From: Acetobacter sacchari | Lineage (GTDB): Bacteria; Pseudomonadota; Alphaproteobacteria; Acetobacterales; Acetobacteraceae | NCBI RefSeq assembly: GCF_017377715.1 | Contig: NZ_JAFVMF010000001.1 | Span: 62,001-126,000 of the forward strand | Direction of reading: 5' to 3' | DNA: 64,000 nucleotides | Part shown: positions 7,441-9,753 of the stretch, one piece after another | Numbering within the stretch: the stretch's first letter is position 1 | Layout: each line of letters starts with the position of its first letter | Translations under genes and position numbers: made by a program | Notes under the pieces: model-generated | Database searches by the model: none | The model's input: the letters and a program-made list of their open reading frames with translations, nothing else | Told to the model about the DNA's origin: nothing

Positions 7441-8181
7441 TCAGGCGGCGAACTGGTCGAGGTTCGCCAGTTCGCTGACCTGTTCCGCCGTTTCGACGCC
7501 GGGTCTCTGGTTGGGTTCGCGCAGCATATAGCCGCGCCCCCAGACGGTGGTGATGAGATTGCCCGCTCCGGCCGCCTGCAATTTTTTTCGCAATTTGCAG
7601 ATGAATACGTCGATGATCTTCATCTCTGGTTCATCCATCCCGCCATATAAGTGGTTGAGAAAAGCATCTTTTGTAAGAACCATGCCTTTGCGGAGGACCA
7701 GAAGCTCCAGAATCGCGTATTCCTTGCCCGTCAAATGGACCGGAGCTTCGTCAACCTTGACTTCCCGGCTGTCGAGACTGAGGCACAGAGAGCCGATCCG
7801 CAGCGTGGGCTCGCTGAAGCCCTTGGAGCGACGCAGGATCGCTTGCATGCGAGCGATCAGCTCCTCTGCGTCGAAAGGCTTCGTCAGATAATCGTCCGCG
7901 CCGACAGAGAAGGCTTTAACCTTCGCTTGCGGGCGCGTCAGGCTGGATAGAACGATGATCGGCGTGGTCACTCGGGCGGCGCGGACGCGGCGGACGACTT
8001 CATAGCCCTCCATGTCGCGGAGCATCAGTTCGAGTACCGCGAGATCATAGTCGTAATGCCGCAACATTTCGATCGCCTCTTCGCCCGCGGCGACGTGATC
8101 CACTGTGAAACCAGCGCTTTTCATGATTTGGGCGATCTCCCCGACCGCGCCCATATCGTCCTCAACCAGCAATACACGCAT
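7441..8181 (-). CDS. ctrA: CtrA-family cell-cycle response regulator with Glu at the phosphoacceptor site
   Basis: CtrA is the alphaproteobacterial master regulator of cell-cycle and flagellar genes. This 246-residue copy has an N-terminal receiver (VLLVEDD at 3-9, TKPF with the conserved Lys) and a C-terminal winged-helix domain that is nearly invariant in the family (LTGKEYAILELL, FLNHLYGGMDEPEMKIIDVFICKLRKKL, TVWGRGYMLR). At the position of the phosphorylated Asp51 the codon is GAA, giving YDYDLAVLELML with Glu51. The protein ends in two alanines, as does Caulobacter CtrA, where they are a ClpXP degradation signal. The ATG at 8181 aligns with known CtrA starts; a C9 tract on the plus strand (G9 in the message) occupies the ribosome-binding position. 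It is divergent from fliI. Confidence 0.93.
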   Translation of the reverse strand: MRVLLVEDDMGAVGEIAQIMKSAGFTVDHVAAGEEAIEMLRHYDYDLAVLELMLRDMEGYEVVRRVRAARVTTPIIVLSSLTRPQAKVKAFSVGADDYLTKPFDAEELIARMQAILRRSKGFSEPTLRIGSLCLSLDSREVKVDEAPVHLTGKEYAILELLVLRKGMVLTKDAFLNHLYGGMDEPEMKIIDVFICKLRKKLQAAGAGNLITTVWGRGYMLREPNQRPGVETAEQVSELANLDQFAA

Positions 8182-8187
8182 TTTTCG

Positions 8188-8196
8188 CCCCCCCCC
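8188..8196 (-). promoter_or_regulatory. G9 homopolymer at the ctrA ribosome-binding position
   Basis: On the coding strand nine consecutive G, then CG and AAAA, lead into the ATG at 8181. It is the only purine-rich Shine-Dalgarno-like element there. A homopolymer in this position could change length by slippage. Confidence 0.5.
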
Positions 8197-8218
8197 CGGT
8201 GTGGCGTTGATCAATTGT

Positions 8219-8230
8219 TACCATTTATGG
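8219..8230. repeat. Inverted repeat ACCAT-TT-ATGGT in the ctrA/fliI divergent region
   Basis: ACCAT and ATGGT are separated by two bases in the AT-rich divergent promoter region between ctrA and fliI. It may be an operator. It does not match the paired TTAA consensus of CtrA. Confidence 0.3.
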
Positions 8231-8358
8231 TTGTATGTGTCCAAAGAAATTTCTCGTAAAGCGTGTATAAAGACATCTATGTGATGATAAATATAGAAAC
8301 ATTGTTTTATTTTTGATCAAATTTCCGGACAAATATCGATTTTTTGGGAGATTTGCTC

Positions 8359-9753
8359 GTGTCCATGAGTATTCTTGATCGAATATCGGCAACTTGTGCG
8401 TGTATTCCTGCTGCTGTTGCTACTGCGAAAATCGCATCGATTTCAGGCCTTGCGGTGACGGTGAACGGTCTCGCGGGGTTGGCCAGTATCGGCGATCGCG
8501 TAACGATTGTGCGTAGAGACGGGTCGGAGACGCTGGCGGAGATAGTGGGCTTCTCGGCGACGACCGCACGGGCGATGGCGTTTGGCAGCCTCGATGGCGT
8601 CGGCGCTGGAGCAGAAGTGAGGTTGCCTGTGTTCATCGGCGCCCGGGCGCCAACGCCGGGAGGGAGTCTTCGCGTGTCGGACGGGTGGGTTGGACGCATC
8701 GTCGATCCGCTCGGTCGTCCGCTGGACGGCAAGGGCCCCCTTCCGCCGGGTCCTGAATGGCGAGCCGTGAGGGCTGCGCCGCCCGACGCCACTCTTCGTG
8801 CGCGGTTAGGGCCGCGGATCGATCTTGGCGTCCGCGCCATGAACCTGTTCACCACTTGCCGTCAGGGGCAGCGGCTCGGTCTCTTCGCCGGGTCCGGTGT
8901 CGGCAAGTCGACGCTTCTTTCCATGTTGGCCCGTAACACCGCATGCGACGTATCCGTCATCTCTCTGGTCGGAGAGCGCGGGCGTGAAGTCCGGGAGTTC
9001 GTGGAGGATGATCTCGGCCCCGAAGGGCTGGCGCGTTCTGTCGTAATCGTCGCGACGTCGGACGCGCCTCCGCTGATGCGACGAGAGGCGGCTTACGCGG
9101 CGACGGCCGTGGCGGAGTATTTCCGCGACCGGGGCAAGTCGGCGTTGCTCTTGATGGATAGCGTCACACGTTTCTGTCAGGCGTTGCGCGAGATCGGTCT
9201 TTCCACGGGAGAGCCCCCCGCGACCCGTGGCTATCCTCCCTCGGTGTTCGCCGAACTGCCCCGATTGCTGGAGCGCGCGGGGCCGGGACTGGCTCAGGCG
9301 GACGGAGCGGCAGGGCAGATCACGGCGCTGTTTACGGTTCTGGTGGAGGGAGACGACCACAATGAACCTGTCGCCGACGCCGTAAGAGGCATTCTGGACG
9401 GGCACATCGTGCTCGACCGCAAGATTGGCGAGGCAGGTCGTTATCCCGCTATCGACGTGCTGCGCTCTCTCTCCCGTTCCGTGCCGGGTTGTAATTCCGG
9501 TGCGGAGAATGCACTGACCCGTCGCGCTCGAAGTCTGATGTCAGTGCACGCGGATATGGCCGATATGATTCGGCTCGGCGCCTATCGACCCGGTTCGGAT
9601 CCCAGAGTTGATGAAGCCATCGCTCTGGTTCCCGGGATCGAGACTGTTCTGGCTCAGGATCGCCGCGAGCGCTCCACTTTGTCAGCTTCATTCGACGCTC
9701 TGCGCGACGTCCTGCGCGAAGAGCCTGTTCCTGTCGACGTCACGCCCTCCTGA
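8359..9753 (+). CDS. fliI: Flagellum-specific ATPase FliI
   Basis: FliI is the hexameric ATPase of the flagellar type III export apparatus at the cytoplasmic face of the inner membrane. The 464-residue protein has an N-terminal beta-barrel domain, the Walker A loop GSGVGKST (178-185), LLLMDSVTRF as Walker B, and GEPPATRGYPPSVFAELPRLLERAG, typical of FliI/YscN. I prefer the GTG at 8359, because GGAG lies 8 bases upstream; ATG at 8365 and TTG at 8344 are in frame. fliJ follows after 40 bases. The rest of the flagellar set is outside the window. Confidence 0.95.
   Translation: MSMSILDRISATCACIPAAVATAKIASISGLAVTVNGLAGLASIGDRVTIVRRDGSETLAEIVGFSATTARAMAFGSLDGVGAGAEVRLPVFIGARAPTPGGSLRVSDGWVGRIVDPLGRPLDGKGPLPPGPEWRAVRAAPPDATLRARLGPRIDLGVRAMNLFTTCRQGQRLGLFAGSGVGKSTLLSMLARNTACDVSVISLVGERGREVREFVEDDLGPEGLARSVVIVATSDAPPLMRREAAYAATAVAEYFRDRGKSALLLMDSVTRFCQALREIGLSTGEPPATRGYPPSVFAELPRLLERAGPGLAQADGAAGQITALFTVLVEGDDHNEPVADAVRGILDGHIVLDRKIGEAGRYPAIDVLRSLSRSVPGCNSGAENALTRRARSLMSVHADMADMIRLGAYRPGSDPRVDEAIALVPGIETVLAQDRRERSTLSASFDALRDVLREEPVPVDVTPS

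Follow-up and report, generated by a model that had tools for sequence, protein, structure and literature searches.

A CtrA with glutamate in place of the phosphorylated aspartate in Acetobacter sacchari and related Acetobacteraceae

We analyzed a stretch of 64,000 nucleotides from Acetobacter sacchari (contig NZ_JAFVMF010000001.1, positions 62,001 to 126,000), here called the window, which carries a ctrA gene on its minus strand. The locus has the following features:

7441..8181, minus strand: ctrA, an ORF of 246 aa starting with MRVLLVEDD and scoring above the cut-off of the NCBIfam CtrA model NF045991
8155..8163, minus strand: codons 7–9, the Glu-Asp-Asp of the acidic pocket, intact in the window's genome (placed by ORF coordinates)
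8029..8031, minus strand: codon 51, GAA, glutamate replacing the phosphorylated aspartate (codon read)
7879..7881, minus strand: codon 101, the lysine of TKPF, intact (placed by ORF coordinates)
7444..7449, minus strand: the C-terminal Ala-Ala codons of ctrA (codon read)
8206..8221, minus strand: GTAAC-N6-TCAAC, a candidate autoregulatory CtrA site 35–40 bp upstream of the ctrA start (motif scan)
8344..9753, plus strand: an ORF divergent from ctrA, across its promoter, in a cluster of 7 ORF members

We take the ctrA product to consist of a receiver domain (residues ~1–115) and an OmpR-type winged-helix DNA-binding domain (residues ~125–223), and the divergent ORF presumably encodes the flagellar ATPase FliI. 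The CtrA model was passed narrowly, with 353.4 bits and a cut-off of 350. A preliminary description of this DNA had noted glutamate at CtrA position 51, and the codon is indeed GAA, read from 8031 to 8029 on the minus strand; the interval given for it, 8021–8060, includes this codon and spans residues 41–54, not the whole gene. The other pocket residues had been described as intact, and E7-D8-D9, Ser79 and Lys101 in TKPF are all kept. The window's genome (4.55 Mb, a draft assembly of 166 contigs, 99.68% complete) was searched for a second CtrA with Asp51, and none was found; the runner-up protein is only 35–38% identical and presumably belongs to the wider OmpR family. Judged by sequence, the window gene is the CtrA orthologue and the sole close match in its genome, and the original claim stands.

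A sequencing error at codon 51 is unlikely, because glutamate is found at this position in all 11 named Acetobacter loci (codons GAA or GAG), two of which encode a protein ~99% identical to that of the window. These two closest named loci (L051 and L052; Acetobacter nitrogenifigens DSM 23921 and Acetobacter sp. DsW_063) both have GAA at codon 51, so that the residue and the codon type recur in other genomes. Among the best 80 named loci, 12 have Glu51 (the 11 from Acetobacter and L103) and 68 have Asp51. We surveyed 150 genomes of the Acetobacteraceae, 124 of which had a CtrA match at 1e-60. Leaving out G062, G086 and G109, in which CtrA was incomplete, gave a table of 121 genomes with Glu51 in 26, Asp51 in 93 and Ala51 in 2; second CtrA copies in G015, G016, G059, G067, G111 and G125 were excluded from the counts, and second matches in G007, G020 and G051 are outside the table. 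A relaxed search of the remaining 26 genomes identified Glu51 in two more (G040 and G122), Arg or Ser at position 51 in G068, G140, G096 and G023, and a CtrA fragment without residue 51 in G032; several others had distant matches or none. Class-wide, we read 89 of 115 CtrA matches (29 among the best and 60 chosen from the rest, including the weakest; the window's own gene excluded), of which 85 had Asp51 and 4 had Glu51 (G040, G122, G237 and G238), with altered pockets in all four. G238 (L390) and G237 (L401) lie outside the Acetobacteraceae and combine genomes of 1.1–1.2 Mb with a Glu51 CtrA and a broken pocket, which suggests that the same change may have taken place elsewhere in the class.

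In a quick CtrA tree of 132 rows (the 121 genomes plus 11 named loci; columns 8, 9, 51 and 101 masked), one clade of 43 rows, which includes Acetobacter and Asaia, takes 33 of the 37 Glu51 rows (SH-aLRT 96). Aligning the CtrA proteins of the family at position 51, as had been proposed as a check, thus showed that glutamate marks a clade and not one genome. The Glu51 rows that fall outside the main clade belong to G133, to G148 and to G081/G146, which pair together; the placement of G148 is unsure because of 5% contamination and a long branch. Site 51 within the clade is Glu in 33 rows, Asp in 8 (mostly with a broken pocket) and Ala in 2, so glutamate at this position is not indispensable. The broken-pocket Asp rows G046/G126 and G060 adjoin Glu rows, and Ala is present in G066 and G001. 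The tree needs a minimum of 9 changes at site 51, and because this count is independent of the root we infer the directions of change. In the same genus as the window, G030 (L202/L303) has Asp51, an EDK pocket and a long branch, with no flagellin and no ChpT, and the best CtrA-like match of G117 is at most 34% identical.

The phosphorelay that acts on CtrA had been predicted to be lost or rewired. The Pfam model of ChpT (PF10090) had no match in the window's genome, and the Caulobacter control was positive. We also built a profile from 7 ChpTs of the family and ran it on 54 genomes, 11 of which scored at least 95 bits and all others at most 36 bits, mostly in long frames of kinase length. The best score in the window's genome was 28 bits, in a frame of 758 aa, and hence no orthologue. 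The clean separation by the family profile counters the idea that ChpT was overlooked by an insensitive Pfam model. ChpT was called by the profile for these 54 genomes and by Pfam E < 1e-5 elsewhere; by these rules G001, G009, G017 and G099, with weak Pfam matches in long frames, are scored as lacking ChpT, whereas G075 (4.6e-5) is undecided. For CckA, we used as a query a 528-aa hybrid kinase of G095, for which the top two NCBIfam models are CckA, with scores below their cut-offs. The solved structures most closely related to it are 5idj ('Histidine kinase') and 5idm ('Cell cycle histidine kinase CckA'), which we take to be of Caulobacter origin. This query found no match at 1e-55 in the window's genome, in a search that scored the best 9 of 60 candidates. 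A CckA profile of 10 sequences, run on 61 genomes with the best 25 of 56 candidates scored, had a match of at least 460 bits in 10 genomes; the Glu51 genomes all scored at most 385 bits except G148, which is ambiguous with 420 bits, and this gap speaks against an overlooked CckA. The best match in the window's genome (8.3e-89) is in the range of paralogues, and no orthologue was found among the scored candidates. HisKA matches number 19 in the window's genome, with hybrid kinases among them, and we assigned the remaining hybrid kinases to paralogues by score. As far as the draft assembly shows, the window's genome is without CckA and ChpT, in line with the prediction. The cell cycle regulator gene gcrA is retained in 29 of 31 searched genomes over the cut-off, including that of the window (G000:C122:92127-92885), so relay loss does not extend to every part of the circuit. 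The genes ctrA and chpT are ~6 kb apart in G003, G024, G050 and G107 and on separate contigs in G095. In G107 chpT adjoins a cheA-like ORF, and by eye G009 has chemotaxis-type genes at the corresponding place; coarse ORF clustering discerned no clean deletion of chpT by synteny.

Relay loss in this order has been described before. Brilli et al. (2010) reported relay members to be missing to varying degrees in their Rhodospirillales cluster, and their bidirectional best hits identified cckA and no chpT in the CtrA-bearing organisms of that part of the tree (PMC2877005). The presence of cckA in that study counts against the absence of CckA here. Tomasch et al. (2021) reported ctrA, gcrA and ccrM in 72–82% and chpT, cckA and divL in 27–36% of Rhodospirillales genomes (PMC8116508). 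Our results agree with these surveys in that ctrA is commoner than cckA and chpT in Rhodospirillales and share with them the loss of the relay; here this loss is tied to a replacement of the phosphoacceptor. D51 is not mentioned in the main text of either paper (PMC2877005, PMC8116508), and the word 'aspartate' is absent from the main text of PMC2877005. Our searches of open-licence papers in PubMed Central brought up no title, abstract opening or inspected passage that describes Glu51 in a natural CtrA. The loss of CckA and ChpT in Rhodospirillales is thus already published, and the natural, clade-wide replacement by Glu51 was not met with in these searches.

Within the 121-genome table, ChpT is present in 1 and absent from 25 of the Glu51 genomes, present in 76, absent from 16 and undecided in 1 of the Asp51 genomes, and absent from both Ala51 genomes. 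Fisher's test of Glu against Asp, which ignores kinship, gave p = 9e-14, and a phylogenetic independent-pairs test had only 2 supported pairs, too few for significance. The pocket is intact in 75/76 Asp51 genomes with ChpT, in 5/16 Asp51 genomes without ChpT and in 2/25 Glu51 genomes without ChpT. Hence, pocket integrity tracks the presence of the relay. The two intact-pocket Glu51 genomes without ChpT are that of the window and G009, and the window's genome may stand near the start of the process because its pocket is still intact. The intact-pocket Asp51 genomes without ChpT are G013, G039, G041, G087 and G099; among these, G087 encodes CckA in an assembly that is 84% complete. Since 16 Asp51 genomes lack ChpT, five of them with an intact pocket, relay loss does not force Glu51. 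G133 (L138/L103) has Glu51, an intact pocket and ChpT, with CckA not found in an assembly that is 88% complete, and is possibly an intermediate stage.

We compared the two halves of the protein. Mean identity among the 33 Glu51 rows of the clade is 60% in the receiver and 76% in the DNA-binding domain, and among the 74 intact Asp51 rows it is 70% and 77%; between Glu51 and Asp51 rows the DNA-binding domain has a mean identity of 72%, as compared with 76–77% inside each group. The relaxation is mainly in the receiver, because the identity of the DNA-binding domain is close to that of the Asp51 rows and that of the receiver is lower. In sister lineages the pocket is eroded at residues besides Asp51; residue 8, for example, is Asp in 15, Ser in 12, Asn in 6, Gly in 4, Pro in 4, Tyr in 1 and Thr in 1 of the 43 clade rows. 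For 8 Acetobacter ctrA genes dN/dS was 0.057 overall, 0.068 in the receiver and 0.047 in the DNA-binding domain, values that are rough because synonymous changes approach saturation (mean dS ~1.2; up to 2/28 pairs unusable). These ratios indicate that Acetobacter ctrA is under strong purifying selection. The DNA-binding half, described earlier as intact, is as conserved as in Asp51 genomes, and both results support the earlier reading of a functional, phosphorylation-independent CtrA.

The candidate site GTAAC-N6-TCAAC is present 35–40 bp upstream of ctrA in 12/12 Acetobacter Glu51 loci, counting that of the window, and also in G025. The other Glu51 loci with flanks (G009, G022, G054, G131, G123 and L103) do not have it, and 0/123 Asp51 rows do; some rows repeat a genome. 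The ctrA promoter of Rhodobacter capsulatus has its own CtrA site, GTAAC-N6-TTAAC (PMC6363796). The scanned stretches of the window's genome (the window and L305–L308) contained no strict motif other than that upstream of ctrA; the relaxed motif had 6 matches there, with 1.7 expected from shuffles. We claim only the candidate site at ctrA and no flagellar CtrA regulon, the strict motif being confined to ctrA in these stretches. Motility as the only role of CtrA was not supported, as G008, G070, G073 and G101 have a Glu51 CtrA and no flagellin match. The C-terminal Ala-Ala is conserved in 12/12 Acetobacter CtrA proteins, the rest of the tail being variable; it is also present in 80 Asp51 rows and lost in G022, G025, G054, G131 and G123. 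CpdR and RcdA are needed for CtrA proteolysis in Caulobacter. Both are reported missing from the Rhodospirillales cluster of Brilli et al. (PMC2877005), which weighs against a role of proteolysis here. Altering the C-terminal alanines of Caulobacter CtrA stabilises the protein (PMC4433202). Where the ribosome-binding site of ctrA is expected, the window has a run of 10 G in the sense of ctrA (8188–8197), whose counterparts in L052 and L051 have 7 G and 6 G. The run might be prone to slippage and thereby tune the translation of ctrA, or the lengths might differ only through assembly.

In textbooks CtrA is the master regulator that governs the cell cycle and motility of Alphaproteobacteria, and its phosphorylation is regarded as central. 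The aspartyl phosphate by which CtrA is switched cannot form on a glutamate at position 51. Because of this chemistry, with which the gene content agrees, residue 51 should take up no phosphate: the phosphoacceptor Asp51 of a phosphorelay is a glutamate here, and the protein lacks a residue needed for phosphotransfer, as pseudo-receivers do. We propose, with good confidence, that Acetobacter CtrA is a phosphorylation-independent pseudo-receiver regulator, which would be always on and have its output set by its abundance. Glu51 would hold the receiver in an active-like state, and CtrA would act as a constitutive DNA-binding regulator with an output that depends on the amount of protein instead of phosphorylation. 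This amount might be governed by transcription, via the conserved candidate autoregulatory site, and also by proteolysis, via the retained C-terminal Ala-Ala. With the relay gone, the rest of the phosphorylation pocket would be free to erode, as in other members of the clade.

The proposed regulator can be set beside known systems. With the canonical CckA-ChpT-CtrA pathway it shares the receiver and OmpR-type DNA-binding domain, the conserved DNA-binding half, the C-terminal Ala-Ala and the pass of the NCBIfam CtrA model; the window's genome differs by Glu51 and by the lack of a CckA or ChpT among the matches found. Caulobacter and R. capsulatus, the organisms of the engineered D51E alleles, have the relay. 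Laboratory D51E, termed phosphomimetic (PMC4241560, PMC6363796), is the identical substitution at the identical position, but it is engineered, whereas Glu51 of Acetobacter is natural, clade-wide and accompanied by a missing relay. Pseudo-receiver regulators such as Agrobacterium Rem likewise have a receiver without phosphotransfer residues (reviewed in PMC12632262). The Acetobacter protein differs from the reviewed cases in being a CtrA, for which the ancestral relay is known and whose own family still has living members with Asp51, and the main text of that review never mentions CtrA.

A different explanation, unlikely in our view though not far-fetched, is that Glu51 does not mimic a phosphate at all: the unphosphorylated form of CtrA does the work, and glutamate is a tolerated conservative swap, one base away from Asp, that followed relay loss. 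In R. capsulatus the unphosphorylated form of CtrA is the one proposed to switch on gafA, which in turn activates the gene-transfer-agent genes; overexpression of the D51A form raised gene transfer 2-fold, while that of wild type or D51E lowered it slightly (PMC6363796). Broken-pocket Asp51 and Ala51 are also found in relay-less relatives, and for some pseudo-receivers activity via the residue at the Asp position has been disproved, according to the 2025 review (PMC12632262). However, site 51 in the clade is Glu in 33 rows, Asp in 8 and Ala in 2, whereas Asp8 of the same pocket has been replaced by any of Ser, Asn, Gly, Pro, Tyr and Thr, which suggests that the charge at position 51 may still be selected, with shared ancestry explaining part of the pattern.

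A stronger version of the always-on, abundance-set CtrA makes the substitution the cause of events, and we regard it as rather doubtful. The phosphomimetic mutation would have arisen naturally, made CckA and ChpT dispensable and so caused the loss of the relay, leaving Acetobacter with an always-on CtrA whose level is tuned, perhaps by the G-run of the leader, autoregulation and proteolysis. Such an exit from phospho-control would have recurred, namely in the Acetobacter/Asaia clade, in G081/G146, in G133 and in the two small-genome members outside the family.

It is very improbable that Glu51 is a step of degeneration without dedicated function in a CtrA that acetic acid bacteria are losing. 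G029 and G116 have no CtrA match at 1e-28, G117 has only a match of 34%, and the CtrA receivers of G030 and G066 are very divergent; against decay stand the dN/dS of 0.057 in Acetobacter, a DNA-binding domain no less conserved than that of Asp51 genomes, and, again in Acetobacter, the conservation of the promoter element and of the C-terminus. Equally slim are the chances of a rewired relay, in which another kinase or phosphotransferase signals to CtrA by a different contact with residue 51 unphosphorylated: the 19 HisKA matches and the retained acidic pocket and Lys101 of the window's CtrA would fit it, but the acceptor position has no aspartate and the pocket erodes in sister lineages.

A clade that has culturable and industrially used members thus carries as its wild type the substitution known from the engineered allele D51E, and the kinase and the phosphotransferase appear to be lost in it. 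Two questions thereby become accessible to experiment: the function of CtrA once phospho-control is gone, and whether the phosphomimetic substitution came before or after relay loss. The CtrA-like proteins in which Arg or Ser occupies position 51 (L405, L406, L409 and L410, in G068, G140, G023 and G096) have a destroyed acidic pocket (unreadable in L409) and a conserved DNA-binding core of the CtrA type, and possibly represent a second, separate route by which phospho-control was lost in the family.
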